NCBI GenBank assembly: GCA_964019135.1
Contig: OZ025265.1
Location: 620,001-684,000 of the forward strand
Direction of reading: 5' to 3'
DNA from: Arenicola marina
Lineage: Eukaryota; Annelida; Polychaeta; Arenicolidae
DNA length: 64,000 nucleotides
Under the pieces are notes generated by a model. The model did no database searches. It had not been told where the DNA came from and worked only from the letters and a program-made list of their open reading frames with translations. Position 1 is the first letter of the stretch, and each line of letters starts with the position of its first letter. Positions 38,570-63,388 of the stretch are shown here, one piece after another. A program made the translations under genes and the position numbers.

Positions 38570-39216
38570 GAGTTAACCGGAAGTCTAAGCGAACGAGACT
38601 TTATAGAAATGAAACTTCAGAACATGTTGAATATGTCAGTCCTGTAACAGTAGTGTTTTCAGCGCACCGCATCGTGGCGCCACTTTAAGTAGTGTTTCAA
38701 GACATCGAATGGTGACGCCACTGTAAGTAGTGTTTCAACCCACCTGATGGCGCCACTGTAAGTAGTGTTTCAACGCACCTGATGGCGCCACTGTTTCAAC
38801 GCACCTGATGGTGGCGCCACTGTAAGTAGTGTTTCAACCCACCTGATGGCGCCACTGTAAGTAGTGTTTCAACGCACCTGATAGCGCCACTGTAAGTAGT
38901 GTTTCAATGCACCTGATGGTGGCGCCACTGTAAGCAGTGTTTCAATGCACCTGATGGTGGCGCTACTGTAAGTAGTGTTTCAATGCACCTGATGGTGGCG
39001 CCACTGTAAGTAGTGTTTCAAGACATCGGATGGTGGCGCCACTGTGAGTAGTGTTTGAACGCACCTGATGGTGGCGCCACTGTAAGTAGTGTTTCAATGC
39101 ACCTGATGGTGGCGCTACTGTAAGTAGTGTTTCAATGCACCTGATGGTGGCGCCACTGTAAGTAGTGTTTCAAGACATCGGATGGTGGAGCCACTGAAAG
39201 CAGTGTTTCCAGGGTC

Positions 39217-39655
39217 GAGTTCGGATATGCGATCGGCGTAATCGGCGCAGATATTTGGAGCATGCGCACTTATACCTTCCGCTCATGTGCGGATCAAGAT
39301 AAACCGAACGCAAAATCCGCGGTCCACGTGAATGTTGCACTTGCTGGACTGAACAAATTTTGAAGATCGTTAAATAGCGCCATAAAATAAATCAACGGAT
39401 ACGTATTGTGTTCATTATCTTATTCTTGTTGTTATAATATTATTTACAGATTTGCAGGTCGCAATACTACTATATATATATTAAATGTATTGTGCGGCCT
39501 GGACGCCATGTTAGAAATCCTCGTGATCCTCCTCCGAATGGGGGAGTAAGGTCTGGGAGTAAAATGTACCACGTGACCGCCCTATCGGACCACAATCTCC
39601 GCGTTCGGTTATGCACTCCGCGGAGTCCGACTACACCGCTCGCATACCCGAACTC
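39217..39655. mobile_element. MITE-like element, copy 1
   Basis: Imperfect terminal inverted repeats of about 30 bp: the left reads GAGTTCGGATATGCGATCGG and the reverse complement of the right GAGTTCGGGTATGCGAGCGG. Length about 439 bp, no coding capacity, inserted in the 38-bp array. A target duplication could not be defined. Confidence 0.7.
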
Positions 39656-40043
39656 ATCCAATGCATCAGATGGTGGTGCCACTGTAAGTGTCCCAATGCA
39701 CCGCATCGTGGCGCCACTGTCAGTAGTGTTTCAAGGCATCGGATGGTGGCGCCACTGTGAGTAGTGTTTGAACGCACCTGATGGTGGCGCCACTGTAAGT
39801 AGTGTTTCAATGCACCTGATGATTGCGCCACTGTAAGTAGTGTTTCAATGCACCTGATGGTGGCGCCACTGTAAGTAGTGTTTCAAGACATCGGATGGTG
39901 GCGCCACTGTAAGTAGTGTTTGAACGCATCGGATGGTGGCGCCACTGTAAGTAATGTTTAAACGCATCGGATGGTGGCGCCACTGTAAGTAGTGTTTCAA
40001 AGCATCGGATGGTGGAGCCACTGAAAGCAGTGTTTCCAGGGTC

Positions 40044-40482
40044 GAGTTCGGATATGCGATCGGCGTAATCGGCGCAGATATTTGGAGCATGCGCACTTAT
40101 ACCTTCCGCTCATGTGCGGATCAAGATAAACCGAACGCAAAATCCGCGGTCCACGTGAATGTTGCACTTGCTGGACTGAACAAATTTTGAAGATCGTTAA
40201 ATAGCGCCATAAAATAAATCAACGGATACGTATTGTGTTCATTATCTTATTCTTGTTGTTATAATATTATTTACAGATTTGCAGGTCGCAATACTACTAT
40301 ATATATATTAAATGTATTGTGCGGCCTGGACGCCATGTTAGAAATCCTCGTGATCCTCCTCCGAATGGGGGAGTAAGGTCTGGGAGTAAAATGTACCACG
40401 TGACCGCCCTATCGGACCACAATCTCCGCGTTCGGTTATGCACTCCGCGGAGTCCGACTACACCGCTCGCATACCCGAACTC
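40044..40482. mobile_element. MITE-like element, copy 2 (by block duplication)
   Basis: Essentially identical to 39217-39655 and flanked by the same array variants. It therefore arose by duplication of the 827-bp block, not by a second transposition. Confidence 0.75.
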
Positions 40483-41081
40483 ATCCAATGCATCAGATGG
40501 TGGTGCCACTGTAAGTGTCCCAATGCACCGCATCGTGGCGCCACTGTCAGTAGTGTTTCAAGGCATCGGATGGTGGCGCCACTGTGAGTAGTGTTTGAAC
40601 GCACCTGATGGTGGCGCCACTGTAAGTAGTGTTTCAATGCACCTGATGATTGCGCCACTGTAAGTAGTGTTTCAATGCACCTGATGGTGGCGCCACTGTA
40701 AGTAGTGTTTCAAGACATCGGATGGTGGCGCCACTGTAAGTAGTGTTTGAACGCATCGGATGGTGGCGCCACTGTAAGTAATGTTTAAACGCATCGGATG
40801 GTGGCGCCACTGTAAGTAGTGTTTCAAAGCATCGGATGGTGGCGCCACTGTAAGTAGTGTTTGACAGCATCGGATGGTGGCACCACTGTAAGTAGTGTTT
40901 CAATGCATCGGTTGATGGCGCCACCGTAAGTAGTGTTTCAAGGCATCGGATGGTGGCGCCACTGTAAGTAGTGTTTGAACGCATCGGATGGTGGCGCCAC
41001 TGTAAGTAGAGTTTCAAGGCATTGGATGGTGGCGCCATTGTTAGTAGTGTTTAAAAGTATCGGATGGTGGCGCCACTGTAA

Positions 41082-45283: not shown

Positions 45284-45571
45284 GGTATCAGTTCTACAGG
45301 TCAGTAGAGCTTCTACAGATCAGTAGAGGTTCTACATGTAAGTAGAGCTTTAAAAATTAAGTAGAGCTTCTACAGGTAAGTAGAGGTTCTAAAGTTAAGT
45401 AGAGGTTCTACATGTAAGTAGAGGTTCTATAGGTAGCTTCTACAGGTAAGTAGAGGTTCCACATGTAAGTAGAGGTTCTACATGTAAGTAGAGGTTCTAC
45501 ATGTAAGTAGAGGTTCTACATGTAAGTAGAGGTTCTATAGGTAAGTAGCAGTTCTACAGTTAAGTAGAGGT
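45284..45571. repeat. 19-bp array (TCTACATGTAAGTAGAGGT)n
   Basis: About 14 degenerate copies with ACAGG/ACATG variants. Every unit contains GTAAGTAG, which looks like a splice donor on the plus strand, though no neighbouring exon was recognised. Confidence 0.88.
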
Positions 45572-48422
45572 TCTGCGTCCAGGCTCCCTTTACGATCAAT
45601 ATATTTAAACTTAATATCATAGGAAATCACTCCTAAAGTAATAAGAGAAGGAAATTATCCACATAAGTATCGAGCTGTTACTGTACACGCGGCACTGACA
45701 CCTACAACCCGATGGGATACTGTGCATCCTAAGCAACAACAATATATTCATGATATATCTTTAACATGAAGCCGGTTAGCACAGCAGCTTTAAAGTATTG
45801 TTTCTCTCCTTACTGCATGAACACTCGCCCTAATTAAACTGGATAATACTCAAGAACGATAACGTAAAATTACTAAAGGAAACCTTATGTTTAACGTACG
45901 ACTTGATGTATATCGCGTTGGCCTCTAGGCATTGACTTTCCTACACCATCTAGAGAAATTTGAATCCCTTTTTCCAGTAAGAACATACACGACAAAACTC
46001 ATATTCGAAATTTGACTGAGAACAATACATGCAAAAAATAATTATTTTATAAAACTCAAAAGTTTCCATTACTTCAAACGGTTAACTGGCATCCGACGTC
46101 AAGAATAATTCCAATGACCTTTAAATATGGTTGTCACGAGCATGACGTCACAGGTGACTAGACAGGCAGTATTATTAAGCTGTAGTCTTTGGTAAAAAAT
46201 TGTTGCTCGACTCGAATTAAAATGAAAAACTCCTCACTAACAGCCTACATATAATGACAAAAAGCTGTCGCTTCAGCTGATAGGAAAAAAAAACTAATTA
46301 ATATGCTCATGAATATTCATACGAAACACTGTCAAGGCATTCAAACCCGGACGCCACGTGGCTTTGTTTACCTCATTACTCGCGCGGATGATTCATAAAA
46401 AAGTAATAATGATTTTGTTTACAATGGTAACTTATAGTGAGAAACACGCTTTTAAACACTGATTTACATCATGGTCGCTTCAGACCAGTAATGCTACTGT
46501 AAATCTCAATTTCAAGAAATATTCCTCAAACCGCCGAAGCAAGTCAAAACAGAGCCATTCGACCAAGTGAGGCTGAGGGGAAAAGGAGGATAGTGGTGGG
46601 GGGGGGGGGGCAGAGAGACCGTCAAACCATTCGGGAAGACAAATCTAAATATTAACAAGACACTGTTAAAATCATCAAAAAAATATACTTAACGACGATA
46701 CAAAGAATGTAACAAGTTTTATCACCACACCACTCAGATAGAACTATATAGGTGCCTCGAAGCAGCACAAATAAACTTCTTGTTATTCTTGTCGTCTTGT
46801 TAACTATCTCAATACGTCGGGCCTTCATGGGTAAACATGAATACTCATATCAACTCAGTAAGCCATTAAATAAAATCGTAAAAAGTACAAACATAAGATA
46901 CAGACATTAAAAGCAATCCTCTAGACCAGTCTCGCAGTAACGACCATCAGAGACTCGCCGCTAACGGTTGTGTAACTCAAACTCCGACGAAACAGTGACA
47001 TTATCCGCTTTGTATCCAGTGCTATGTCTACTACGGCTGTTCCATGATACTCCCTCCGAGGCTCTTCCAACAATCTGCCACCCCCAGCAGCTTTAACAGC
47101 CACCCTTCATCCAGTGACGGGTTCCAGTGGGTAGAGGAAGAAACGGGAGATAAAACTCATCCCGCAAAGCTTTTTGGCTATAATCATCCAGCATCGTGTA
47201 TTTAAACTGTGTGTTTTCTTCAACATGCAAATACGTGATTATCACGTGTTACCACGTGGCCACGTGCTGTGGGAGGTATCGCTGGAGTAACCCACGCCTC
47301 CAATGCCCTGTGTACTGGCCTAGTCAGATGTGGTGAGTTAAGCAAGGATATTTGTTACAATGGCCCTTTAACTTTTGCTGCCAGTGAAGTGGTCTCCATC
47401 TCGCTAGAAACAGATACACACCGTTCAATGCCCGTGCTGATAGAATAGCTATATAGAGAGACTTCAATACACCCGAACACCAATCACAATGATGAAGAAG
47501 TCGACAACAAAGTTTCGAAAAAATAAACATTGGACGAGCGGGGACACACAGACTTGTGTAGTGACGTCAGCACACTGACGTCACCTGCATGGATAAACTC
47601 TTCTGACAGAGGGCGCAACAACTTCTCACTTGCCGTACATTCACCAACTGTACCGCCTCCTTGCGGGAGAGTGATATTTAGTGTTAGCGGCTATCCCAAC
47701 AGTGAAGGTGCCTTCCTCCGATCTGACGGAACCCACCGCAGTCAAATTTGTTGAAATAGTAATTTCAATTGTAATGCTTTACAAGGCAACCCTAGATAAC
47801 TTCTGATTGGATTGGGGTTAAAAGGCCTTTCAGCTTGATGGGCTATATTGTGCCAGTCTCCAATAAGCCAATGCCCAAGTAATGATATATATATGGATCG
47901 ATATAATACGAAGTCAGCAGATAGTGAATTATGCGTGTTTTATCCTATGAAGAGGAACTTCAATTGTTCATATCAAACTCACAAAGTGCATTTTACTTCT
48001 CGACTGCCGAGAAATACGCCTCCCAGGGCGATAAAAGGGGGATTTTCTACAATCTCACTGAGGAAGAATGCTAATCACAAGCCGAGGAGAAAGACACAAA
48101 CAGTCGGACAGATGTCGAGGAGTGAGTGAGAGAGAAGGGGACACACATGAGCCTGACCTACGTGTAATAAAGTTCAGCACTCAGGCACCCTAACCACTCA
48201 AGGCTGTGCCATAAAAAACCCACAACCCATCCCTCACCACCCAGCCCACCCCCTCAACCCGCCCAGCCCCCCCCCCCCCCACCCCCCCCCCTCCTTCCCC
48301 ACGCGATCCCGATTCGGCCCACAAACACACTGGAGCGACAATACCCGACTACCTATAAACTTGAATATTTGTGATAAATGCGACAGAGTGCGAGTACGGA
48401 ACGCTGGCCACCAGAGGGCTCT
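45571..48422. other. intergenic region left of catulin, no gene recognised
   Basis: No exon or family match seen. It holds a poly-G tract (46594-46610), a C-rich block (48230-48300) and a paired CRE at 47561. Short open frames, e.g. 46921-47103, show no recognisable domain. The catulin 3' UTR probably extends into the right part. Confidence 0.5.
47561..47584. promoter_or_regulatory. inverted pair of CRE-like sites
   Basis: GTGACGTCAG and its exact reverse complement are separated by CACA. Each contains the TGACGTCA palindrome that CREB/ATF proteins bind in animals. Function is inferred only. Confidence 0.4.
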
Positions 48423-48787
48423 CACAACCGGTCGTACGAGTTGACGGTCGCCATGACAACCGGTCGTACGAGTTGACAGTCATCACAACCGGTCGTACGA
48501 GTTGACGGTCGCCATCACAACCGGTCGTACGAATTGACGGTCGACATCACAGCCGGTCGTACGAGATGACGGTCGTACGAGTTGACAGTCGACATCACAA
48601 CCGGTCGTACGAGTTGACGGTCGCCATCACAACCGGTCGTACGAGTTGACGGTCGCCATCACAACCGGTCGTACGAGTTGACGGTCGCCATCACAACCGG
48701 TCGTACGAGTTGACGGTCGCCATCACAACCGGTCGTACGAGTTGACGGTCGCCATCACAACCGGTCGTACGAGTTGACGGTCGCCAT
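48423..48787 (-). repeat. 32-bp array spanning the catulin stop codon
   Basis: About 11 copies of a unit reading ATGGCGACCGTCAACTCG then TACGACCGGTTGTG on the coding strand. The first copy encodes MATVNSYDRL and the stop; the others form the 3' UTR. One unit near 48541-48580 is rearranged. Confidence 0.93.
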
Positions 48788-48994
48788 CGGTTTACTGCTG
48801 AGCGAGGAACTGCGACGGAAGTTGGGATCGGAACGCGCGCTTCCGCTGCCGCTCTGCACCGAGTCACGGTCACTTCCGGTTCCGTCGCTGCCGCAGTTTG
48901 TTGACGTCATCTCCATCTGGGGCGACGTCCGCCATCTTGGCATTGAGGTCTGTGAGCCGTGCTGCGACATGGTGCCCCGGTAGTCTATGTTGTA
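48755..48994 (-). CDS. CTNNAL1: catulin terminal exon (Ser-rich tail and stop)
   Basis: Seventy-nine codons plus TGA. Acceptor CCTCTTGCAG. The tail starts YNIDYRGTMSQHGSQ, continues through a Gly/Ser/Asp stretch (GSGSARSDPNFRRSSSLSS, several possible basophilic phosphorylation sites) and ends MATVNSYDRL. The last ten codons and the stop are the first copy of a 32-bp array that continues as 3' UTR. The vertebrate tail is shorter and unrelated, so this assignment rests on splice phase and open frame rather than homology. Confidence 0.8.
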   Translation of the reverse strand, partial: YNIDYRGTMSQHGSQTSMPRWRTSPQMEMTSTNCGSDGTGSDRDSVQSGSGSARSDPNFRRSSSLSSKPMATVNSYDRL

Positions 48995-51900
48995 CTGCAA
49001 GAGGGCGGCACAGGGTTAAGATCAGGCCATGGGGTTAGTGAAGATACCATCTCTCAAGTAGGGGTACATTGACGACATAGTGAGATCATAGTAACATAGT
49101 AACGTGGTAACATATATGAACTGGGAAGAAAATATAGTAAAGTGGAAATATATACAAAATTGGAAAAGCCTGAATTCTGCAACCTGCAGAACCAGTGCGC
49201 AAACAAGCGGGTCTGTACCTAAATCAGCGATCGGTGTAGCTTCTGGGTCCTGGACGTGCACACGGCTTTACTAGACACTGAGGGGGGGGGGGGGGTCGAG
49301 GGTACTGAGGCGGCCGGCTTCCCGGAGTACGTACCTTTGTTGTACATATGAAGCACGTGGTCACAACCTTGGCAATGGCGTTCATCAAGTTCTTTGTCTC
49401 CTGTATCACACTGTCCACCTGTCGGTTATATCACAAATATCACAGAGGATTAACACCACATTTTGTCTCCTGTATCACACTGACCACCTGTCGGTTATAT
49501 CACAAATATCACAAGGATTAACACCACACTTTGTCTCCTGTCTTACAGTGTTACCAAATACATGATTTCATAGGCATAGATGACAGCAAAGTCCTCTAAT
49601 TATCATTATCAATTGGAGAAGCATGGAACAGCGAAGCCATGTCCCCGGGGGTGACCCCCTACTCTTTGCGAAGAAGGACACAGGATCTTTATCCTGCGAC
49701 CACACAGACATGGCCACAGCGGGGCTCGAACCACTGATCCACGCGCCGTTAGGCTCTCAGGTGATCAGAGCACTCAATGCGAGCGCTGTAAGTCACTGAG
49801 CTATGGCGGCGGCCCGGTTTGGGGCTGTGACACTGTACCTTGTTAAATGTGGCCGCCTTGCCCATGGTGGGGGACTTGATGGTGAAGTTGAGCTGCTGAC
49901 ACAGGACTGGCAGCCGCTCCTGGTGGGCGATCAGCTCCGTCTTGTGGAGACCGGCCGGAACCTAAACAAAGGTCAAAAGTCAAAAGTCAATGGTCAAGGT
50001 CAGCGAGCAGTGTAATGCGTCACGTGTTTTTAATACTGGTGCTGCCTGAGCAACTGAGCTAGGGAGTCTCTCTACCAGGGTTCGAGCCCACGACTTATTG
50101 ATCTGCATACAGCCTAGCATGCATACCAACTCAGCTAGGGAGCCTCCAGCACCCCCCCCCCACCCCCCACCCACCCCCTGTCCCTCAACACCAACCCATC
50201 AAATACTGAGCTGCATGATATATATAACAACACAACTTATAATAAATCATAAAAAGAGAAAGCTATCTCACATGACTCATGAACTCCTTGACCGTCTTGA
50301 ATAGCTTGGCGCCCTCCTCCCCGAAGTACTCCGCCTGGGTGAAGAGGTCCTGAGTGGTCTTCAGCGGCCCCTCGCCCCGCGTGAACAGGTACATGGCGAA
50401 GGCCATGCTAGACATGTTCTTGGCGCGCCGCACGATCTCGTTGTCCGGCTCCTCCCACTTCTCGGTCTCGGCGTCCATCTCCGAGGTGATCAGCTTCATC
50501 TCGAGCCCCAGCTTGGCGATCTTCGCTTGCTCCTGCAAAGGCCAGAGTGGGGAGACGCTGCACGAGGGGCGTTTGGCACCAGTGACGTCAGCAAATGACG
50601 TCACGAAGGCGATATGAGAACATGGGTGTCGTACTTTTAAGTACGTTACTGTTTATAAAATGTGATGTGAGGAAATGACGTCACAAAAGTGACATCCGAA
50701 CATGGATTGCATATTTAAGTAGGTCAATGTCTATAAAATAATGACGTCATTCAGTAATATGACGATAAAAAGTAAGAATAGGGTGTCGTATTATGAAGTA
50801 TCTTAAGAAAATGATATCAAAAATAATACTTTATGGTCTTCATGAATGCAATTTCCAAAAACTTCCCTTTCAGTAATATATTTGCTGCATATTTGCACAG
50901 AACAAAATGCGGCAATAAAATATAAAATAGTTCTATCCGTACGATGCAAGAAAACTATTGTTACAAATATGTAACTAACAGGTCCATTAACAATCAGACA
51001 GTGTTAACTACGGTTCAAAGACCTATAGCCTCAACAGGACCAGATATATTTGCCGTACAATAACCATGCATCGTGAAATTTTCGTTCCAAAATAAAGAGG
51101 GAAACGAGTAGTGTGGTTGAAAACGTGGGACACATATTCGGTTAACATCTCTCGTGAATTGCATCAAACTAACATTTTTGGAAATCAGAAATTGACACAT
51201 TTGCCTTGGTAATAACAATAAATAGAAATACGTGGGACAAAAATGAAACGTACACCCGAGGTGAAAATGACGAAACATGCAGTTACATACTCAAGAATAT
51301 ATCCAAGATATGATATCAGGGGGGACATCAATGCTAAGAACACAAGAACTAGTCTATATCAAATTAATGTTGTTGGTTAAAATTTAAAGCCAACTAAAGC
51401 ACACACGACATGAAGCACTGTGAGCAGCGCACAGTTGTGCACACGGCACCCAGATGACGTGTATATTACCTCCGCATTTAGCCGAACAGGTTTCACAGAC
51501 CGTGTGGTAGTCCCGTGTTTCTAAGGCCAGACAAAGGGGGTCAAAGAACAGACATAGTATAGTACAGCACAGAGAGGTCCAGGGAGTTATCGGATTACAA
51601 ACAGTACGACACGCCGTGAAATGGACGGCGGGAGGAGTTGAAAAAGACTGAAATGTACATGTGAATGATTAGCACTTCATTGGACACGGCGAGTAAGGGT
51701 GAAAGAGGAGGCTGAAAGGTACCACAAAGAGGTGAACACTTATTAATATACATATATAAATAGGTGTATATCTTTATATATAAAGATTAGTAGGTGGGAA
51801 ACACACGCCTGCCATGCCCAAAATCATCAGAGCTGCGAGATTAGAACGTTAATAGAATTCAATATGTACCATTACATGCCATAATGTTCCAGCACGTGCA

Positions 51901-54900
51901 GCAATGTACCATAATGTATTATAATGTACCTTAATGCACCATTATGTACCACAGTGTACCATTATGTACCACAGTGTACCATTATGTACCACTATGTACC
52001 ATAGTGTACCATTATGTACCATAGTGTACCACAAAATTATGTATTATTATATACCATAATGTACAATTATGAACCATTATGTACTATTATGTACCATTAT
52101 GTACCACGGTGTACCATAATGTGCCATAATGTACCATAATGTACGGTCATGTACCATAGTCTACCACAAATTAAAGTATAAGTATTAAAGTACATTATTA
52201 TGTACCATAACGTACCACAATGTACCACTATGCACCATATTGTACCACTATGCACCATATTGTACCACTATGTATCATAATGTACCATAATGTACTATTA
52301 CGTACCACTGTGTACCATGATGTATATATCATCATTGTTGTATATCATAAAGCAAGTTCCAAAGAAGCGAAAACGAAACCATTGAATTTAGGAAAGTTTC
52401 CATGTAAACGCATTTCTAGAATCTCGCGTAGAATGGTGCCAAGCTCTCCTCTCTTCTGTTCATAGACATGGCGCGGCGTGAGTTGGGGACCCACGTCAGT
52501 CATGCACTACGAAGCCAAGCGTACAGGTAGCAACAGCAAAGACAAGCATTTCATAGGAAACATTTCAATTTCGTACTTTCACCAATATTGAAGACACCAG
52601 ATAACAAAGATAGAGCTGGCAAGGCCCATGGGGATTTAGTTGTTAAAATAGAAACAACAACTATTTACGTTTGGATTGTAACAATGAAGAAATTGAAAAC
52701 ACAGATCCGGAATGGAAAATGCGGAAAGGCTGGCGGTTAGTTTGGAATACGTCAAATGAACTCCATAAGGAGGCAGGAAAAGAGGCCTCTTAACAAACAT
52801 TGTCGGAAACTATGCAGAATGTAAAAAAACAGAATGCGGACCCTTTAAGAAGGTAACTATGGCTGTACTGCGCACAGAGAAGATTATCTCTCGTTGCATA
52901 AACACAACAATAGCCGAGAAACCGTGGTGGTGAAAAGTGAAAGTAATCACGATGACTTTTGGGAGTAGTTACACATTCTACCGCCAGGGTCTGTAGTTTT
53001 GGCTTAGTGTTTAGTCGGTATGTTTCAATGAGTCGATGATTTCAAGGACGAGAGACACCAGTTACGGCAGGTCGGTTGCCACGCACACCAGAGAGTTTCT
53101 CCTCCACCTCACAGGAAATGGTAACAGGAAGGAGATAAAACACGGACAAAGCTACTCACTTCATTGCTCTACACAACGTGTGACATAACGCGGCAGGGGC
53201 AGGCAACCGCAATGCATGGCGGGAAGAGGCGGAGAGAACGCATGCAATGAATATTAATACGGTTGCCATGGCAGCACGTGTCTTATATGGTCACGACCGG
53301 GCAAAGCGGTGAGGCAACTACACAAAGCTCACCCCCCCCCCTCTCTCCCAGCCCAATGCTCAGTCAATATCTGAATTTGGAATATGAGGTGCATAATAAA
53401 AAAAAAATGGTGGTATATATCTATCTTTCGATATATATACCACGAAATTGGCGAGTCGTGGCATAATTAATAACTTATCTCAAGCTTAATCGTATGTTGC
53501 ACGACGACATACGAATTTACATACGTAAATTACAGATGCACAAACATGTCGTTTCAACGTTTGACATACTATTGAACTAATATTTGTATTAGCGTAATAT
53601 TCTCATATGAACTTCAAATGACATTAGAATTCATTTAATCCTACTTAAGACATGTCAAAAGATTACCCCAGATATCACATAGTGGGTAATGAATTGATTA
53701 GCAGCGAACTTAACCATGTCGTACAAACAAAGCCAAGGGCACAGCTAGCGCACGATTCCAACTTAACCCGAGACACTGTCTTAGCCACATTGGCCTTCCT
53801 CCTACAGCATGCGTCTCCCTATTATCGCCCACGGAGCGGGACATGCATTACTCCTACAGCATGCGTCTCCCTATTATCGCCCACGGCGCGGGCCATGCAT
53901 CGCTGCCAGCAATACACTAGCATTGGAGCCAGTCCAGCTACACTAGATACAGAAACCAGTAAGCAAACACAGACGTGGAAGCCTTTCACCCTTACGGCGC
54001 CTAAAGTGAATACATTCACAGCCTCAGCGGCTCTTTCGCAAAGAGCAAGGTCAGCCTAGACACTTTTGCAAAGAGCGAGTGGAATTTTAGTTACTCTCCT
54101 ATCGAGAGCAAACTGAATTGCGACAATCTCTTTGCAGAAGGCGGCGAGACCTTATAAACTCTTGCGTAAAGGGGGCACTGAAGGCTTACATCATCAATCT
54201 TTATAAGATTTTCAAGTTATATGAGAAACTTAAGAGAAACGTATATAAGAATATGAACCATCATTACTAAATGTGAAGTTATTGCATTAAAGCAATAAAT
54301 CTTAATAATGTTACGTAACTTGCACATATCATATATAGTGTATATCTGTTGGAACTCTTCAAGGAATTGCCGTTCTCTCCCCAAACAACAATGCAAGAGA
54401 AACCCTTCCACATATTAATGGGCACATTTCGTCTCTTACTCCCCACCGAGCTTAGGATGAGTACTGTTACCCATCATTACATTCCGTATTTTACCCACTC
54501 TCTCAGTTAGTGACAGCTCATATGGTAAAGCTTCCGTATTTTCCTCACCCCGGGCCTTGGCAAGGAGTTACAAGATATGGTAAAGCTTCCGTATTTCCCT
54601 CACCCCGGGCCTTGGCAAGGAGTTACAAGATTTGGTAAAGCTTCCGTATTTTACTCACCCCGGGCCTTGGCAAGGAGTTACAAAATATGGTAAAGCTTCC
54701 GTATTTTCCCCACCCCGGGCTTTGGCAAAGAGTTACAAGATATGGTAAAGCTTCCGTAGTTTACTCACCCCGGGCCTGGGTAAAGAGAGGTAGACCTGTC
54801 GGTCAGCCACCTTGCCTTGACTAGAGTCGTTAATGTCCTTGACTAGCACGGAGAGGTCATTGATCTGTGAGGCCCACGTGTCCGCGAACACGTCCACATT

Positions 54901-57900
54901 CTCTTTGGCGATCTTACTGGCCGGGTACTGCGCCAGCGTCTTGGAAGCTTGCAGGATCTGAGGCCAAACCGAACGATAAACCATAAAAGAACAAACTGGC
55001 ATGATGTAATTGATGGAAACGCAATTCAATCAAAGCGGTGGGAGGCGTCCGGAGTTAGCAAAATTGGGCTTAAGCACTAGAATGGTGAAGACCTAAGACT
55101 TGAGCTTTGTACCTACCATGGGTGACAGAAACTTGAGTTGTGTACCTGCCATGGGTGACAGAGACTTGAGCTGTGTACCTACCATGGGTGACAGAGACTT
55201 GAGCTGTGGACCTACCATGGGTGACAGAGACTTGAGCTGTGGACCTACCATGGGTGACAGAGACTTGAGCTGTGTATCTACCATGGGTGACAGAGACTTG
55301 AGCTTTATACATACCATGGGTGACAGAGACTTGAGCAGTGCACATACCATGGGTGACAGAGACTTGAGCTGTGTACATACCATGGGTGACAGAGACTTGA
55401 GCTGTGTACATACCATGGGTGGCAGACACTTGAGCTGTGTAACTACCATGGGTGACAGAGACTTCAGTTGTGTACCTACCATGGGTGACAGAGACTTGAG
55501 CTTTGTACATACCATGGGTGACAGAGACTTGAGCAGTGTACATACCATGGGTGACAGAGACTTGATTTGTGTACATACCATGAGTGACAGAGACTTGAGC
55601 TGTGTACCTACCATAGGTGACAGAGACTTGAGCTGTGTACCTACCATGGGTGACAGACTTGACCCGTGTACCTACCATAGGTGACAGAGACTTTAACTGT
55701 GTACATACCATGGTTGACAGATACTTGACCTGTGTACATACCATGGGTGACAGAGACTTGAGTGATGTACCTACCATGGGTGACAGAGACTTGAGCTGTG
55801 TACCTACCATGGGTGACAGAGACTTGAGCTGTGTACCTATCATGGGTGACAGAGATTTGAGCTGTGTACCTACCATGGGTGACAGAGACTTGAGTTGTGT
55901 ACCTACCATGGGTGACAGAGACTTGAGCTGTGTACCTACCATGGGTGACAGAGACTTGAGCTGTGTACATACCATGGGTGACAGACTTGAGCCGTGTACC
56001 TACCATAGGTGACAGAGACTTTAACTGTGTACATACCATGGTTGACAGATACTTGACCTGTGTACCTATCATGGGTGACAGTGATTTGAGCTGTGTACCT
56101 ACCATGGGTGACAGAGACTTGAGTTGTGTACCTACCATGGGTGACAGAGACTTGAGCTGTGTACCTACCATGGGTGACAGACTTGAGCCGTGTACCTACC
56201 ATAGGTGACAGAGACTTTAACTGTGTACATACCATGGTTGACAGATACTTGACCTGTGTACATACCATGGGTGACAGAAACTTGAGCCGTGTACCTACCA
56301 TGGGTGACAGAGACTTGAGTTGTGTACCTACCATGTGAGACAGAGACTTGAGTGATGTACCTACCATGGGTGACAGAAACTTGAGCTGTGTACCTACCAT
56401 GGGTGACAGAGACTTGAGCTGTGTACCTACCATGGGTGACAGAGACCTGAGCTGTGTACCTACCATGGGTGACAGAGATTTGAGCTGTGTACCTACCATG
56501 GGTGACAGAGACTTGAGCTGTGTACCTACCATGGGTGACAGAGACTTGAGCTTTATACATACCATGGGTGACAGAGACTTGAGCTGTGTACCTACCATGG
56601 GTGACAGAGACTTGAGCTGTGTACCTACCATGGGTGACAGAGACTTGAGCTGTGTACCTACCATGGGTGACAGAGACTTGAGCTTTATACATACCATGGG
56701 TGACAGAGACTTGAGCTGTGTACCTACCATGGGTGACAGAGATCTGAGCTGTGTACCTACCATGGGTGACAGAGACTTGAGCTTTATACATACCATGGGT
56801 GACAGAGACTTGAGCTGTGTACCTACCATGGGTGACAGAGACTTGAGCTGTGTACCTACCATGGGTGACAGAGACTTGAGCTGTGTACATACCATGGGTG
56901 ACAGACTTGGACCGTGTACCTACCATGGGTGACAGAGACTTTAGCTGTGTACCTACCATGGGTGACAGAGACTTGAGCCGTGTACCTACCATGGGTGACA
57001 GAGACTTGAGCTTTATACATACCATGGGTGACAGAGACTTGAGCTGTGTACATACCATGGGTGACAGACTTGAGCCGTGTACCTACCATAGGTGACAGAG
57101 ACTTTAACTGTGTACATACCATGGTTGACAGATACTTGAGCTGTGTACCTGCCATGGGTGACAGACTTGAGCCGTGTACCTACCATGGGTGACAGAGACT
57201 TGAGCTGTGTACCTATCATGGGTGACAGAGACTTTAGCTGTGTACCTACCATGGGTGACAGAGACTTGAGCTGTGTACCTACCATGGGTGACAGAGACTT
57301 GAGCTGTGTACCTACCATGGGTGACAGAGACTTGAACTGTGTACATACCATGGGTGACAGAGACTTGAGCTGTGTACCTACCATGGGTGACAGAGACTTG
57401 AGCCGTGTACCTACCATGGGTGACAGAGACTTGAGCCGTGTACCTACCATGGGTGACAGAGACTTGAGCTGTGTACCTACCATGGGTGACAGAGACTTGA
57501 GCTGTGTACCTACCATGGGTGACAGAGACTTGAGCTGTGTACCTACCATGGGTGACAGAGACTTGAGGTGGCTCTCGCAGTGCTCGGTCCAGATTGCCAG
57601 AGGTTCAGAACCCGCTATGTGACGTAACAACTTGCACACCTGTACCAAAACGAAGAAACATACATGTAATAATTCTGAAAGTAAAAACTGTAAATTACAG
57701 CTTCGTTGTACATATACTATAACCAAGTCTCAATCTCAGAAAATTATCCCAGTTTCGAGATATTTCGTTATGGTGGATGCATTAGGCGTTCTATGGCATC
57801 TCTGTGTACACATGGGATGAAACGTTTCGAGCTTACTAGCCCAGGGTTCGAACCCACGACTATTGATATCTAGCTCAGCCTGCTTACCAACTGAGCTAAG

Positions 57901-60900
57901 GACTCTCCCTGCCAGGGTTCGAACCCACGACCTGTTGATCTGCAGCTCAGCCTGCTAACCCGCCCGGGCTCTCTAAAATGAATTCCCGGTGCCATGGTTA
58001 CCCCGAGGCCCCACGTGACCCACCTCCTGCAGCTGTTCGGAATGTTCCTCAAACTTGACGGACAGTTCGGCCACGCGGTCCGCCTCTCCGCGGTACCCGG
58101 ATGTCTTCAGTGACGTCAATAACTCGTGGTCTTCATTCGACTTGAACACGTCTGAGGCCTGGTCCATGGCTGTGGCTTGTAGCTGAGGGGGGAGAGAGGG
58201 GGAGAGGGGGGTAATATATGTACATGGTGTGATTTGAACACGTCTGAGGCCTGGTCCATGGCTGTGGCTTGTAGCTAAGGGGGGAGAGGGGGGGGGGGGG
58301 TAATATATATACATGGTGTGATTTGAACACGTCTGAGGCCTGGTCCATGGCTGTGGCTTGTAGCTGAGTGGGGAGAGGGGGGGGGGGTAATATAACATAT
58401 ACATGGTGTGATTTGAACACAGTAAATGTAAAACACTTGCCTTCGTTGAGATTTGAACGCACAACGCTACCATCAGAAGTCCACAGTTCTACTGAGTGAG
58501 CTACCCAAGTTCCACCTGTTTGAAGACGTCTGCATCTGATTTTCTGGAACCTTTCCCCCCAAATGTCTACGGCCCCGCTCGTCCAATGTTTACCATTGGG
58601 GGGGATAGTAACTTTAAGGTACATGAGACCAGGATCCCACCCCCTGGACGCCCTACCTGTTTACGGAGGCTTTAACTTTAAGGTACATGAGACCAGGATC
58701 CCTTCCCCTTGACGCCCTACCTGTTTACGGAGGTTTTAATTTTAAGGTACATGAGACCAGGATCCCCACCCCCTGGACGCCCTACCTATTTGCGGAGGTT
58801 TTAACTTTGAGGTACATGAGACCAGGATCCCCACCCCCTGGACGCCGTACCTGTTTGCGGAGGTTTTTACCAGGATCCCCACCCCTGGACGCCCTACCTG
58901 TTTGCGGAGGTTTTTGCAGGCGGTCTTTGTCTTGAGAATGGTAGTTTCCAGCTCTTGGTTCGGCGCTGTGTTGTCCTTCTGGTCCTGGGAAACAAACGTA
59001 AACAAACTTCTGTCAATAGAAAACAAATGTAAACAAATTTCTGTCAATAATAAACAAACGTAAACAAAGTTCTGTCAATAATAACAAACTGTATTCCGCA
59101 TAAACAATTTCCAGGAAAAGTTGAAGACTCACTTGTTACAGGTGGTCGTAATTAATCCATACATTTCATGTAATTGTAACTTAACAATTATAGCGACCAC
59201 AAGTATCAAATTGTAATACAGTTGGAAGTTAGCACCACATATACTTAGTAAAGCAAAATGATCTCAATATCTGACATGTTTTTCAAATCGCAGATTATTC
59301 CCATTATAACGCATCGAGTGGAGGTTAAATTGCATTGCAAAACCATAATTGTTTGTATTGCAAGACATATATTTCACTTCGGTATACTCTTACATATGTT
59401 TCACTTTTGATGCTTCACTTTTGATGTTTCACTTCTGTATATTCTTACAAATTTCTCCTTTATTGGAATCTTTATCCTGCGACCACGTGCCGTTAGGCTC
59501 TCAGGTGACCAGAACACTCAAGGCGAGCGCTCTAGCCCACTGAGCTATCGAGGCGCCCCCCTCCCCCCTCGAGGATTGGAAACAAATCTACATGAAATAC
59601 TCAATCTGAGGCTCGTGCCCCGCCTACTCCCTCCCCGGTACACCCTGGCGCCGTACCAGCCTGGTTCCGACCCTGAGCAGCGCCATGAGGTCTGCCCGGA
59701 GCCTGTCACACAGCACCAGGATCCGCTCCCGGTTCTCGTGGGACGTGTAGGCTGAGTCCGTGAAGTCCTGGGTCGTCTCCAGAAGGGAGTCCAGCGCACT
59801 CTGTAGCTTGGCCTCCGTGTTGGGTCCGACCAGCGTCACCCGCGTCATCTCCACCAAGTCCTGGGCAAAGCATTTTGGAAAGATTTTAATAACTTTAATG
59901 TTTCGAATTTCTTTTATAAACTTAGTTTTAAATTTGCGTTATGAAAACTTTAATCCTTAGTTTTAAAGACTATTAAGAAATCAATGTTGCAACAAAATTG
60001 TTATTTCTTTTCTTGCGTCACTGGCTCAGCAGATTTATATACCAAAATTCAACATTTTGCTTCAAAATTTTACGTTTCTATGAACTCCGTTAGCAATGGT
60101 ATATCTTATTTTTGATCAAGATTTGTCAATTTGAACATCTGCAATTTTCTCATACTTATATCAGTTTGTTCCTTTAACCAGTGGAGGCTTACTGCTAGAA
60201 AATAATTATCATATATTAACATAATTTGACTAAATCTTCCTATTCCTAACACATAATACAATATTCTTACTCTCACAGCCTCACAACTCCCCTCAAAGAA
60301 CACGACACAGTCCCACATGTATGTATACTGAAAGTGTCGTAAAACCCCAATCAAATGAATTAATCAGATCCCGCAGGTCCCGCCCGCCGAGGGGAAGGAG
60401 CGTCCGTCTGACCTCGCATTCCTTGAGCGCCCGGAAGGTGAGCGGCTGGTGCTGCGCCAGACTGATGCCAGAGTCCCCATTTACCGCCATGGACGGCGAC
60501 ACATCACCGCTCACGTGACCGCCGTGTGTCGCCACCTGGTGGACGGTGTCCAAGGCTTTCCGCATCTGGACGAAGACGCCTTCCCGGTTGCGGCGCGCGG
60601 ATTCGCAGTCCGGATGACGTAGGACCGTCTGCGAGCAGGACAGAGGACAGCGGGAATCAATGGTGGGCGGGTGGGTGTGTGCTTCATGCCAGCCTCGGGC
60701 ATACAAGGGTTAAAGCCGGTCAAAAGAACGCATGGGACTGCGGGGGTGAAGGGGTGGGGTTCATAAATGATTAATTAACGTTGTTCACTAAAATGGAAGA
60801 TTATCATACAAAACGGATTAAACAGAAAACGGAGATGGATACTGATGTGGCCCGCGCAGATTGGTGGTTGCTTCAGGCCAGTTTATGCACACATGGGTTA

Positions 60901-63388
60901 AAGCTGGTAAAAAGAATGTCTGGGACTCAGAAGTGAAGGGATGAGGTTCTTGAATGATTAAATAAAGTTGTTCATTAAAATTCATGGAGAATGTTATAAA
61001 CATGTTTTTTTTTAAACGGAGATGGATACTGATCTGACTCCGTACAGTGGCGCCCTCTTACATCACGCCGGAGCGCTCCAGCACGGAGAGTGATCCGTAC
61101 AGTGGCGCCCCCTTACATCACGCTGGAGCGCTCCAGCACGGAGAGTGATCCGTACAGTGGCGCCCCCTTACATCACGCTAAAGCGCTCCAGCACGGAGAG
61201 TGATCCGTACAGTGGCGCCCTCTTACATCACGCTGGAGCACCCCAGGGCGGAGTGATCCGTACAGTGGTGCCCCCTTACATCACGCTGGAGCACCCCGAG
61301 GATGGAGAGTGATCTGTACAGTGGCGCCCCCTTACATCACACTGGAGCACCCCAAGGATGGAGAGTGATCTGTAAAGTGGCGCCCCCTTACATCACACTG
61401 GAGCACCCCAGCACGGAAAGTGATCCCTACATTGGCGCCCCCTTACATCACGCTGGAGCATCCCCAGCACGGAGAGTGATCCGTAGTGGCGCCCCCTAAC
61501 ATCACCCTGGAGCACCCCAGCACGGAGAGTGATCCGTAATGGCGCCCCCTTACATCACGCTGGAGCACCCCCAGCACAGAGAGTGATCCGTAGTGGCGGC
61601 CCCTTACATCACGCTGGAGCACCCCAGCACGGAGAGTGATCCGTAGTGGCGCCCCCTAACATCACGCTGGAGCACCCCCAGCACAGAGAGTGATCCGTAA
61701 TGGCGCCCCCTTACATCACGCTGGAGCACCCCTAGGATGGAGAGTAATCCGGACAGCGGCGCCCCCTTACATCACGCTGGAGCACCCCAGGGCGGAGAGT
61801 GATCCGTACAGTGGTGCCCCCTTACATCACGCTGGAGCACCCCAAGGTTGGAGAGTGATCCATACAGTGGCGCCCCCTAACATCACGCTGGAGTGCCCCA
61901 GGGCGGAGAGTGATCCGTACAGTGGCGCCCCCTTACATCACGCTGGAGCGCCCCAGGGTGGAGAGTGATCCGTACAGTGGCGCCCCCTTACATCACGCTG
62001 GAGCACCCCCAGCACAGAGAGTGATCCGTAGTGGCGGCCCCTTACATCACGCTGGAGCACCCCTAGGATGGAGAGTAATCCGGACAGTGGCGCCCCCTTA
62101 CATCACGCTGGAGCACCCCAGGGCGGAGTGATCCGTACAGTGGCGCCCCCTTACATCACGCTGGAGCGCCCCAGGGTGGAGAGTGATCCGTACAGTGGCG
62201 CCCCCTTACATCACGCTGGAGCACCCCCAGCACAGAGAGTGATCCGTAGTGGCGGCCCCTTACATCACGCTGGAGCACCCCTAGGATGGAGAGTAATCCG
62301 GACAGTGGCGCCCCCTTACATCATGCTGGAGCGCCCAAGGTTGGAGAGTGATCCGTACAGTGGCGCCCCCTAACATCACGCTGGAGTGCCCCAGGGCGGA
62401 GAGTGATCCGTACAGTGGCGCCCCCTTACATCACGCTGGAGCACCCCCAGCACAGAGAGTGATCCGTAGTGGCGCCCCCTAACATCACGCTGGAGCACCC
62501 CCAGCACAGAGAGTGATCCGTAATGGCGCCCCCTTACATCACGCTGGAGCACCCCCAGCACAGAGAGTGATCCGTAGTGGCGCCCCCTTACATCACGCTG
62601 GAGCACCCCCCAGCACAGAGAGTGATCCGTAGTGGCGGCCCCTTACATCACGCTGGAGCACCCGCAGGATGGAGAGTAATCCGGACAGTAGCGCCCCTTA
62701 CATCACGCTGGAGCGCCCCAGGGTGGAGAGTGATCCGTACAGTGGCGCCCCCTTACATTACGCTGGAGCACCCCCAGGATAAGGAGTAATCCGTACAGTG
62801 GCGCCCCCTAACATCACGCTGGAGTGCCCCAGGGCGGAGAGTGATCCGTACAGTGGCGCCCCCTTACCTTGGAGGTAGTCAGCAGCATCATTGTGGATCG
62901 CTCCAGCACGGAGCGTGCGGCGCCGATCTGAGCTCTCGCCTTCTCACTCTTCAAGTCCTGCACACAGACGAAAAGCAAACAAAATCAAATCTCCACTAAA
63001 CTGCCGTGTTAAAATAATGCCATTTATTACATATTATATACATACGGATTTAGTATATTTCAGGCATGTAAGCAATGTAAATTCAATTATTTAATCATGG
63101 AAGTCTGATCGTGTTATATATAATCGTACCAGATCTGAAAGTTAAACGAAACGACATGCCCAAACAAGTGTGCAAACATGTGACACGTGAAAATAACTGA
63201 CATTTGCCTCTGGACAGATGAGTAAAACTTACATTTTGCCTATCTCTAGACAGATGAGCAAAACTTACATTTTGCCTATCTCCGGACAGGTGTGCAAGCT
63301 CAACCATCTCGTTGCCGAACTGACTGAAAGCCTTGACGAAATCCGTGAATCCACAGACGTTCTCTATTTTGTTTAGACTCGATAATAC
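48755..63388 (-). CDS. CTNNAL1: alpha-catulin, C-terminal ~638 residues in 13 exons (5' end beyond window)
   Basis: Alpha-catulin belongs to the vinculin/alpha-catenin family of helical-bundle scaffold proteins; vertebrate catulin is a cytoplasmic scaffold linked to Rho-GEF signalling. Thirteen exons with GT/AG borders join without any frame change: 63269-63388, 62868-62957, 60413-60628, 59657-59860, 58898-58984, 58024-58182, 57547-57639, 54769-54957, 51470-51520, 50272-50532, 49839-49961, 49335-49418, 48755-48994. The joined product is collinear with human catulin from about residue 170 to the end. It carries the family-diagnostic stretches FSQFGNEMVE, LSGDRQN, TDSAYTSHE, SKIAKEN and TRGEGPLKTTQD, which separate catulin from alpha-catenin and vinculin. 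Every visible intron is phase 0. The N-terminal exons are missing because the window ends. Oddities: eight exon borders are copied into adjoining minisatellites, and the tail is longer than and unlike the vertebrate C terminus. No polyadenylation signal was recognised on this strand downstream of the stop. Identity is based on remembered family sequence, not a search. Confidence 0.96.
49335..49418 (-). CDS. CTNNAL1: catulin exon l
   Basis: Twenty-eight codons, VDSVIQETKNLMNAIAKVV to CTTK. Acceptor ACCGACAG, donor AAG|GTACGT. It aligns with the vertebrate VDKCITKTRSMM segment. Its first codons and the acceptor occur again about 69 bp upstream on the coding strand. Confidence 0.92.
49391..49550 (-). 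repeat. 69-bp array copying catulin exon l start and acceptor
   Basis: TTTGTCTCCTGTATCACACT starts at 49393 (exonic) and recurs at 49462; a partial copy lies at 49530. The second copy keeps CGACAGGTGG, i.e. an acceptor plus the first exon codons. Confidence 0.9.
49613..49815 (-). mobile_element. tRNA-derived SINE copy
   Basis: Closely matches the SINE at 16688-16945: the B box on the minus strand is GGTTCGAGCCC and the A-box region TAGCTCAGTGAC. The (AACC)n tail end is missing. It sits directly beside the exon k donor. Confidence 0.85.
49839..49961 (-). CDS. CTNNAL1: catulin exon k
   Basis: Forty-one codons, VPAGLHKTELIAHQERLP to KAATFNK. Acceptor TTTGTTTAG, donor AAG|GTACAG. It aligns with the vertebrate segment containing LIPLCHQL (here LPVLCQQL). 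A tRNA-derived SINE lies directly downstream (49613-49815), only about 24 bp from the donor. Confidence 0.93.
50045..50130. mobile_element. degenerate tRNA-like SINE fragment
   Basis: GCCTGAGCAACTGAGCTAGGGAG and CCAGGGTTCGAGCCCACGAC resemble the reverse complements of an A box and a B box, followed by a second TCAGCTAGGGAGCC. Located in the intron between exons j and k. Confidence 0.5.
50272..50532 (-). CDS. CTNNAL1: catulin exon j (most conserved)
   Basis: Eighty-seven codons, EQAKIAKLGLEMKL to KEFMSH. Acceptor CCTTTGCAG, donor CAT|GTGAGA. It contains NMSSMAFAMYLFTRGEG followed by PLKTTQDL, the strongest family signature in the gene. Third positions are strongly GC-biased compared with the AT-rich intron next to it. 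Confidence 0.97.
51470..51520 (-). CDS. CTNNAL1: catulin micro-exon i (17 codons)
   Basis: A 51-bp exon encoding KHGTTTRSVKPVRLNAE, found by bridging the gap between SLPRPG and EQAKIAKLG. Acceptor GGCCTTAG, donor GAG|GTAATA. Phase 0 at both ends, and the length and position match the vertebrate linker. It is short and basic, and a likely candidate for alternative inclusion. Less certain than its neighbours because the linker is poorly conserved. Confidence 0.82.
51862..52325. repeat. 10-bp array (ATGTACCATA)n in a catulin intron
   Basis: About 45 degenerate copies of a decamer, with A/T changes at the last positions and GTACCACAGT variants. One short interruption near 52160-52195. Confidence 0.88.
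53793..53903 (+). repeat. ~54-bp two-copy tandem repeat
   Basis: TCCTACAGCATGCGTCTCCC begins twice, at about 53800 and 53851, followed by TATTATCGCCCACGG(A/C)GCGGG in both. It lies inside a catulin intron (between exons h and i) and no exon is involved. Confidence 0.85.
54487..54795 (-). repeat. 55-bp array copying catulin exon h donor
   Basis: Period exactly 55 bp (anchor TATGGTAAAG at 54521, 54576, 54631, 54686, 54741). Each coding-strand copy has GCC(C/A)AGGCCCGGGGTGAGT-like sequence, matching the exon h end and donor with a few changes. Confidence 0.92.
54769..54957 (-). CDS. CTNNAL1: catulin exon h
   Basis: Sixty-three codons, ILQASKTLAQYPASKIAKEN to VYLSLPRPG. Acceptor TTGGCCTCAG, donor CCCGGG|GTGAGT. 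SKIAKENVDVF and YLSLPRP are nearly the vertebrate sequence. About 27 bp spanning the exon end and donor are copied in a 55-bp array directly downstream. Confidence 0.95.
55091..57570 (-). repeat. 33-bp minisatellite derived from catulin exon g donor (about 75 copies)
   Basis: The unit on the coding strand reads TACACAGCTCAAGTCTCTG then TCACCCATGGTAGG. It equals the last seven codons of exon g plus its donor. Because 33 is divisible by three, long frames stay open on both strands (for example LKSLSPMVGTQ repeated on the minus strand). Some units lack 6-7 bp, which shifts the frame. The open frames are not called as separate genes. Confidence 0.97.
57547..57639 (-). CDS. CTNNAL1: catulin exon g, donor copied into the 33-bp array
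   Basis: Thirty-one codons, VCKLLRHIAGSEPLAIW to SHLKSLSPM. Acceptor GGTACAG, donor CCCATG|GTAGGT. VCKLLRHIAGSEPL matches the vertebrate CRLLRHISGTEPL. The final codons LKSLSPM and the donor form the repeated unit of the array below, and the exon frame stays open into the array to about 57013. Confidence 0.95.
57838..57965 (-). mobile_element. tandem tRNA-like SINE heads
   Basis: Two copies of GGGTTCGAACCC-type B boxes with accompanying GCTCAGT(T)GGT-type A boxes lie about 70 bp apart. On the minus strand they read AGCTCAG..GGTTCGAACC. This is a second SINE family, also at 18215-18275 and 50045-50130. Confidence 0.6.
58024..58182 (-). CDS. CTNNAL1: catulin exon f
   Basis: Fifty-three codons, LQATAMDQASDVFKS to FEEHSEQLQE. 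Acceptor CCCCTCAG, donor GAG|GTGGGT. It aligns with the vertebrate segment that precedes CRLLRH. The acceptor and the first 13 codons occur twice more upstream on the coding strand (58232-58412), so there are three competing acceptor-like sites. Confidence 0.94.
58141..58420 (-). repeat. ~90-bp array copying catulin exon f start and acceptor
   Basis: Three copies of the exon f 5' end (GTCTGAGGCCTGGTCC on the plus strand at 58150, 58242 and 58331), each followed by TGTAGCT(G/A)A(G/T), a polypurine tract and TACATGGTGTGATTTGAACAC. Each carries a pyrimidine tract plus an AG acceptor-like site on the coding strand. Confidence 0.92.
58430..58525 (-). mobile_element. tRNA-derived SINE head in a catulin intron
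   Basis: On the minus strand TAGCTCACTCAGTAGA resembles a Pol III A box and GCGTTCAAATCTC, about 35 bp further on, a B box. No tRNA fold was checked. It differs from the SINE at 16688-16945. Confidence 0.6.
58617..58910 (-). repeat. ~64-bp array copying catulin exon e end and donor
   Basis: Five units including the exon itself, starting near 58617, 58681, 58746, 58811 and 58865. Each coding-strand copy has CCTCCG(C/T)AAACAGGTAGGGCGTCC, i.e. the last exon codons plus the splice donor, followed by a GGGATCCTGGTCTCATG block. Confidence 0.92.
58898..58984 (-). CDS. CTNNAL1: catulin exon e
   Basis: Twenty-nine codons, DQKDNTAPNQELE to NLRKQ, a predicted charged helix that aligns with the vertebrate ELELSILK region. 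Acceptor TTTCCCAG, donor CAG|GTAGGG. The last five to seven codons plus the donor are repeated downstream in a ~64-bp array (58617-58910). Confidence 0.93.
59467..59556 (-). mobile_element. tRNA-derived SINE with internal deletion
   Basis: Keeps TCTTTATCCTGCGACCA, then jumps to CGTGCCGTTAGGCTCTC and the A-box side TAGCTCAGTGGGC. The B box is deleted. It lies about 100 bp from the exon d donor. Confidence 0.8.
59657..59860 (-). CDS. CTNNAL1: catulin exon d
   Basis: Sixty-eight codons, DLVEMTRVTLVG to GTRL. It includes the hallmark TDSAYTSHENRERIL, which differs from the vertebrate stretch at only one or two residues. Acceptor GCCCAG, donor CTG|GTACGG. No boundary-copying repeat was seen at either edge of this exon. 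Confidence 0.95.
60413..60628 (-). CDS. CTNNAL1: catulin exon c
   Basis: Seventy-two codons, from TVLRHPDCESARRNREGVF to LKECE. Acceptor GCTCGCAG, donor GAG|GTCAGA. The first half aligns well with vertebrate catulin. The second half (around VSGDVSPSMAVNGDSGIS) is a low-conservation linker, longer and richer in Gly/Ser than in vertebrates. GC-rich compared with the flanking introns. Confidence 0.94.
60655..61040. repeat. ~195-bp two-copy tandem duplication in a catulin intron
   Basis: The segments starting near 60661 and 60855 share GTGCTTCATGCCAG-like starts, GGGTTAAAGC, a GGGACT..GTGAAGGG block, TGATTAA and AAACGGAGATGGATACTGAT. The copies are diverged. The second runs directly into the 55-bp array. 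Confidence 0.75.
61041..62867 (-). repeat. 55-bp minisatellite derived from catulin exon b border
   Basis: About 34 units of ~55 bp (variants of 51-53 bp lack part of GTACAG). On the coding strand each unit contains ATGTAAGGGGGCGCC, resembling the true donor AAG|GTAAGGGGGCGCC, and TCCGTGCTGGAGCGCTCC, resembling exon b coding bases. The array ends exactly at the exon b donor. Confidence 0.95.
62868..62957 (-). CDS. CTNNAL1: catulin exon b
   Basis: Thirty codons starting DLKSEKARAQ and ending MMLLTTSK, collinear with the vertebrate segment that follows LSGDRQN. Acceptor GTGTGCAG, donor AAG|GTAAGG. The segment around SVLERS (bases near 62905-62930) and the donor both reappear in the 55-bp array that starts immediately downstream. 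Confidence 0.95.
63203..63303 (-). repeat. 36-bp duplication of exon a end and donor
   Basis: Copies with donors at 63268 and 63232 are 36 bp apart; a third degraded copy lies at 63203-63220. Each copy reads AHLS(G/R)DRQN followed by GTAAGT. Thirty-six bp is 12 codons, so use of the second donor keeps the frame. Confidence 0.9.
63269..63388 (-). CDS. CTNNAL1: catulin exon a (first visible exon)
   Basis: Forty codons, phase 0 at both ends. The acceptor is TTTTCTCTTCAG and the donor AAT|GTAAGT. It encodes FSQFGNEMVELAHLSGDRQN near its end, nearly identical to the vertebrate protein. The last 12 codons plus the donor are duplicated 36 bp downstream (second donor at 63232). Confidence 0.95.

Follow-up and report, generated by a model that had tools for sequence, protein, structure and literature searches.

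Tandem arrays at the exon edges of an annelid alpha-catulin gene as probable mirage-type minisatellites

Why should eight tandem arrays in one gene each be built from the edge of an exon? The question is raised by a 64,000-nucleotide stretch (the window) of the Arenicola marina genome, an annelid genome of 867 Mb, in which most of an alpha-catulin gene lies on the minus strand at 48.4-63.4 kb. The thirteen exons in the window join into a single open frame of 639 codons including the stop, and their borders were set by this one open frame together with an alignment to the catulins of other animals. The first 12 exons found matched the Pfam vinculin family (E 1.7e-65), alpha-catenins in the PDB and the catulins of many animals. 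Among the best 120 of 1368 matches listed, the closest protein was that of the annelid Paralvinella palmiformis (75%), and the Branchiostoma catulin entries reached 53-55%, which rules out amphioxus as the source of the DNA. The length of each of the 13 exons (48755-63388) is a multiple of three and all joins are in phase 0. The exons are as follows.

63269..63388, minus strand: exon, peptide end GDRQN; donor array
62868..62957, minus strand: exon, peptide end MMLLTTSK; donor array
60413..60628, minus strand: exon without edge array
59657..59860, minus strand: exon without edge array
58898..58984, minus strand: exon, peptide end KNLRKQ; donor array
58024..58182, minus strand: exon, peptide start LQATAMDQ; acceptor array
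57547..57639, minus strand: exon, peptide end LKSLSPM; donor array
54769..54957, minus strand: exon, peptide end YLSLPRPG; donor array
51470..51520, minus strand: 51-nt exon, KHGTTTRSVKPVRLNAE, the 13th exon; no array at either edge
50272..50532, minus strand: exon without edge array
49839..49961, minus strand: exon without edge array
49335..49418, minus strand: exon, peptide start VDSVIQETKN; acceptor array
48755..48994, minus strand: last coding exon, ending NSYDRL-stop; array at the stop-codon end

Two further catulin exons were found upstream, beyond the window. No array enters either of them, and one array ends 11 nt away.

The eight arrays of the preliminary description were all listed by Tandem Repeats Finder (TRF), with units of 32-89 bp, and comparison of units with exons confirmed which border each one copies: five donors, two acceptors and one stop-codon end.

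63195..63297, minus strand: 36-bp donor array, 2.5 copies; unit with about 29 nt from exon 63269-63388 and 7 intronic nt
61039..62867, minus strand: 55-bp donor array, 33 copies, 438-bp higher-order period; from exon 62868-62957 minus its last 18-19 nt
58609..58915, minus strand: 65/47-bp donor array; unit with 18 nt of exon 58898-58984; five donors of at least 3 bits
58142..58420, minus strand: 89-bp acceptor array, 3.1 copies; unit with 41 nt from exon 58024-58182 and 48 intronic nt
55096..57567, minus strand: 33-bp donor array, 75 copies; from exon 57547-57639; 68 donors of at least 3 bits; 95% of its intron
54520..54777, minus strand: 55-bp donor array, 4.7 copies; from the donor of exon 54769-54957
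49392..49541, minus strand: 69-bp acceptor array, 2.2 copies; unit with 27 nt from exon 49335-49418 and 42 intronic nt
48422..48788, minus strand: 32-bp array, 12 full copies; at the stop-codon end of last coding exon 48755-48994

In seven of the eight arrays the unit spans a splice border of its host, combining the adjoining exon edge with intron sequence; the eighth copies the stop-codon end and has no intron part. The exonic part of a unit ranges from 9 to 44 nt. In the array at 61039, the splice border was fused after a deletion of 18-19 nt; the match, 32 nt long, lies 18 nt inside the exon, and the array end given by TRF (62867) is flush with exon 62868-62957. For all eight arrays, the best-matching exon among the 13 was the adjoining one. 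The consensus units of six arrays scored above all 300 shuffles; those that did not were 54520 (23 against a maximum of 24) and 61039 (24 against 28). Direct comparison with its exon gave the 61039 array a score of 39, where the highest of 500 shuffles reached 30. The direct score of the 54520 array, which enters its exon by only 9-19 nt, was 23 and was matched by two of 500 shuffles; its entire border copy aligns over 48 bases. In an independent self-identity scan, 8 of the gene's 11 clusters lay at exon edges, the one at 61038 by a margin of just 4 nt. Mutual comparison of the eight units revealed no relatedness, which rules out shared descent and upholds the earlier statement that what the arrays have in common is position. 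Introner-like elements are a single sequence family found in many introns; these eight mutually unrelated units are not such a family.

The edge arrays make up 5253 of the 12,717 intronic bases of the catulin part in the window (41%). Their share is 95%, 82% and 74% in three of the 12 introns and nil in five. A separate AT-rich 31-bp array (58990-59089) ends 6 nt from the acceptor of exon 58898-58984.

Which copy is the original? The border peptides of the array-bearing exons are conserved across animal catulins, which identifies the array as the copy and the exon as its source. At six of the seven array-bearing splice borders, the alignment runs into the next exon without a gap in all nine relatives. 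The seventh, of exon 54769, leads to the 51-nt exon, which was missing from the aligned query; at this border the protein runs straight on in six of the nine relatives, contains additional residues in two and is without the stretch in one. This points to the exon-side copy as the one that would be used in splicing. The alignment at the borders, the scoring of donors and the composition of the units agree with the earlier proposal that working sites are retained on the exon side.

The copies themselves keep AG/GT signals, as judged by scoring in the five donor arrays and by eye at the acceptor copies. Of the 68 donors in the 33-bp array, 47 share the nine bases of the real donor. All 33 full units of the 55-bp array at exon 62868 contain GT, the donor of its copies is weakened, and only one inner copy reaches at least 3 bits. 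Next to their exons, both the 33-bp and the 36-bp array read on in frame without a stop, and in the former the frame stays open through 16 further copies, so that downstream donors could be used without a break in the frame. Polarity of copy age, with the youngest copies at the exon, was weak and mixed (33-bp array, rho -0.24, p 0.04; 32-bp array, rho -0.60, p 0.04) and was absent from the 55-bp array; it was not used as evidence.

Could so many arrays reach exon edges by chance? The main array set was defined by a period of at least 25 and a TRF score of at least 100, and four weaker catulin arrays entered only the 14-array tests. Eight of the ten catulin arrays end inside an exon (the 61039 array being counted to 62899 in the placement test, on the strength of its exon match), a number reached in 1 of 20,000 trials of random placement. 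When placements that destroy an exon, by swallowing it or lying inside it, were excluded, it was reached in 2 of 3000 accepted placements, from 409,538 tries. For 8 of 14 arrays, the corresponding values were 0.0003 and 0.016. A null model based on the array density of the other 48 kb (16 arrays) gave 1.27 expected (P = 5e-5). The arrays in the window are GC-rich (0.53 against 0.41), as are the catulin exons (0.58 against 0.42 in unique intron), and GC content is thus a real confounder of edge counts. Under GC weighting, P was 4e-4 with seeds of 55 bp and 0.015 with seeds of 89 bp; the corresponding values for 8 of 14 arrays were 0.011 and 0.17. Since catulin was chosen by a reader who had seen the pattern, all of these P values are to be discounted.

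We looked for a replicate among other genes at 1-48 kb, and no coding-like segment stood out by codon score, a measure that put three of the 13 known catulin exons below zero, so that a small gene could escape it. Several other features were noted in the window. Open frames at 8795-10433 are reverse-transcriptase-like and were judged by eye to belong to a LINE-type element. The 12-mer GGCGCCACTGTA occurs 60 times with at most one mismatch (0.22 expected), and 59 of these occurrences lie in two otherwise different array groups, 38649-41081 and 61039-62867. At 39473-41081, two of three neighbouring 38-bp arrays (39473-39730 and 40300-40557) share a flanking frame at a spacing of 827 bp. The unit of a 19-bp array outside recognised genes (45291-45574, plus strand) resembles an acceptor followed by a perfect donor (CAG GTAAGT). 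A stretch at 48406-48421, where the stop-codon array has its far end, resembles the core motif of CTCF.

To replicate the edge count in the same genome, exons were set for alpha-catenin (18, one with uncertain borders) and vinculin (20) by protein search and spliced alignment. Both genes were chosen as paralogues from one family search, not for their repeats. Arrays ending inside an exon numbered 7 of 13 in alpha-catenin and 7 of 24 in vinculin, and the recurrence of the pattern in other genes is thereby confirmed. In vinculin, the array after exon 1 consists of about 21 copies, each with the final 66 nt of that exon and 22 intronic nt, and after exon 8 a 69-bp unit is repeated about 67 times. 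Some vinculin arrays lie close to a splice site: the distance to an acceptor is 26 nt for three of them and 9 nt for another, and one begins 7 nt after a donor.

In the main null model, each array was collapsed to one unit and seeds of the same length were drawn from the collapsed gene. Alpha-catenin and vinculin together had 14 edge arrays of 37 against 4.74 expected (P = 8e-5), or 6.80 expected after GC weighting (P = 0.0035). For the three genes, in which the 61039 array was entered by hand as an edge array on the basis of its direct exon comparison, the count was 22/47 against 5.97 (P = 6e-9) or, GC-weighted, 8.81 (P = 7e-6). A stricter run dropped the uncertain exon, demanded at least 12 exonic nt and used the array ends 62899 and 54787; it gave 19/46 against 7.61 expected for the three genes (P = 4e-5) and 11/36 against 5.81, GC-weighted, for alpha-catenin and vinculin together (P = 0.02). 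Across stricter settings, the P values for these two genes together were 0.007 and 0.02. Vinculin alone gave P = 0.029, and 0.16 after GC weighting. Non-edge arrays average 0.51 GC against 0.42. All three positive genes are related to each other and do not form a random sample.

A broader set of genes gave a different result. Among 28 myosin loci there was no excess of edge arrays: 5/41 against 4.1-4.4 expected with borders taken from family matches, and 3/41 against 2.5-2.9 with borders refined by splice signals, the approximate borders weakening the test in both cases. In the first count, two further arrays overlapping matched stretches were classed as 'other' and counted as non-edge. The 28 loci come from a set of 30, from which L042 and L055 were left out as overlapping L034 and L049. 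Each of these two had an array overlapping an exon match (by 11 and 51 nt), and leaving them out therefore works against the edge reading. Myosin edge arrays do exist, at L035, L052 and L056, all at donors. The prediction that arrays overlap exon edges more often than random positions thus held in the three genes and found no support in the myosin loci; kinesin and chaperonin matches were left out of the edge test.

Some features of these matches were noted in passing. Two groups of four myosin matches, at G000:C4:380231-383133 and 367768-371306, each fall on a near-identical profile stretch and are perhaps alternative exons. Seventeen of 77 short myosin exon matches lie inside open frames of at least 600 codons, up to 1760, which indicates that the DNA beside exons is often free of stops in the frame of the exon. 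The kinesin matches on the small contigs C390, C504 and C536 (G000) contain several in-frame TAG and TAA codons and may be contamination from an organism with a ciliate-type code.

Tandem arrays make up 57% of the 170 kb of the genome examined for array load (L011-L027), of which 110 kb is the neighbourhood of vinculin; the share varies, reaching 98% in a piece of 10 kb and falling to 1% in a different one. For Alvinella, the available part of the genome report gives 23.3% repeats (PMC12403961), so the high load here may be a trait of this lineage.

What, then, explains the edge arrays? We consider it probable that those of catulin are mirage-type minisatellites in an annelid, produced by a survival filter and ordinary growth. 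A tandem duplication would by chance span an exon border and would be tolerated as long as the exon-side copy still had a complete site, leaving the mature protein unchanged. The exon-side copy would be the first copy at a donor, the last at an acceptor and the one with the first stop codon at the end of the gene. The direct repeat would then expand into the intron through ordinary minisatellite turnover, creating many decoy sites. A high minisatellite load and a preference for GC-rich seeds, which exon edges are, account for part of the pattern. A donor-spanning duplication preserves the exon-side donor when some six or more bases of intron are included, and an acceptor-spanning one must also include the polypyrimidine stretch. 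The intronic part was at least 7 nt in the 15 donor units listed (period minus exonic overlap) and about 23 nt by alignment in the 16th (61039), and was 24, 42, 48 and 53 nt in the four acceptor units with firm exon borders. In alpha-catenin, one unit of acceptor type (joined region, 16622-17625), whose exon border is uncertain, would have only 12. In the three genes, edge arrays at donors outnumber those at acceptors by 16 to 5 (P = 0.027), which is what one would predict if more intron is required to keep an acceptor working.

A survival filter alone cannot raise edges above introns. Chance and GC bias are also insufficient, as an edge excess of about 2 to 2.5 times persists in the three genes with exact borders, and this residue needs either a mutational preference or better sampling. 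It is possible, though we think it doubtful, that exon-intron borders are mutational hot spots, where something linked to transcription or splicing, such as R-loops or forks stalled at splice sites, produces tandem duplications more often than elsewhere. The three-gene excess beyond GC weighting and the favouring of donors fit such hot spots, and the lack of any excess in the 28 myosin loci and the value for vinculin alone after GC weighting speak against them. The myosin and vinculin results, together with the abundance of GC-rich minisatellites in this genome and a GC-weighted excess of about twofold (14 against 6.8) in the two paralogues, do not bear out the earlier suggestion of a dedicated mechanism that amplifies DNA across junctions. 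A survival filter and a border-specific mutational effect are compatible, and both can be true. A more speculative extension, which we regard as unlikely, is that in this annelid lineage borders, and donors above all, are the preferred birthplaces of minisatellites, that many introns are mostly amplified exon edges and grow outward from their borders, and that transcription or splicing feeds back on DNA to drive this.

Edges might instead not be special at all, with minisatellites arising anywhere in an array-filled genome and catulin standing out by chance and selection. The 57% array content, the null result in the myosin loci and the GC bias of arrays are consistent with this. The paralogues, which were not chosen for their arrays, argue against it (14/37 against 6.8 after GC weighting, P = 0.0035), and we hold it, too, to be an improbable account.

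It is very unlikely that the decoy copies are themselves selected, as redundant donors that protect splicing or as a source of in-frame protein variants. Two arrays, of 33 and 36 bp, are in frame and open beside their exons, and the period is divisible by three in 10 of the 22 edge arrays, but this is near the chance expectation of 7.3. The donor columns of the 33-bp unit are no more conserved than its exonic part (0.959 against 0.963), giving no sign of selection on decoy donors in that array, and the upstream copy of the 69-bp acceptor array contains in-frame stops. Less credible still is the Rogers model, in which segments of exons, duplicated in tandem, gave rise to the introns themselves. 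This process is documented elsewhere (PMC4974935, in the part available) and was proposed for the amphioxus mirages (PMC3087553, likewise), but the units here match the adjoining exon, with the other exons at background in the two arrays scored on all 13, rather than the exons on both sides of the intron, and no array covers a whole intron; recent intron gain was rejected. An assembly artefact is hardly plausible: long near-identical arrays are difficult to assemble, but adjacent copies are not identical (the main TRF rows for the eight arrays give 88-98% matches) and the pattern is present on several contigs.

Collectively, these results favour mirage-type minisatellites that pass a survival filter and then grow by ordinary turnover, and they suggest introns growing outward from exon borders with the exon staying intact. 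They would extend mirages, so far reported mostly in amphioxus, beyond chordates to an annelid, in which they are dense enough for statistics. Three questions become testable: whether exon borders are mutational hot spots, how the spliceosome picks one among 68 near-identical donors, and how much intron length is owed to amplified exon edges.

The amphioxus mirages mentioned in the preliminary description were traced to two publications. In the available text, the paper on amphioxus globins calls such repeats mirages and cites Adh3 (PMC3087553), and a further case comes from the PGBD5 paper, which also refers to troponin C (PMC3902484). The genes concerned are Adh3, the globins BflGb6 and BflGb9, PGBD5 and troponin C. 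In the literature searched, which left most subscription journals outside its coverage, we found no published annelid case, and for mirages in this sense it yielded only the two amphioxus papers (PMC3087553, PMC3902484). For an earthworm, the available text reports minisatellites in a first intron (PMC12783039).

Related arrays are known from human genes, as far as the available parts of the sources describe them. The 31-bp VNTR of human CBS, c.1444_1467+7(16_21), is polymorphic, with 16-21 copies, and lies at a donor (PMC2630376). Its unit combines 24 exonic and 7 intronic nt and thus spans the donor like those of the worm donor arrays, but it is a single described array, unlike the eight of catulin. 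Genes in human segmental duplications carry internal tandem repeats at exon-intron boundaries, some of which alter splicing (PMC2812944). Their minisatellite units of about 30 bp at borders resemble those found here, but they occur in recent gene duplicates, with 27 intron modifications kept after inspection. In documented intron gain by tandem duplication (PMC4974935), the duplication carries splice signals, as it does here; in catulin, existing introns have been lengthened and no new intron is evident.

The closest likeness is to the amphioxus mirages, which in the text available are likewise tandem repeats across donor or acceptor borders with AG/GT signals in many copies. Regular splicing is reported for the amphioxus genes; in catulin, the gap-free protein alignment at six of the seven borders lends indirect support to normal splicing. 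The catulin arrays differ in their annelid host, in reaching 75 copies, in numbering eight within part of one gene, in including one at a stop codon and in having an enrichment tested against GC-matched seeds.
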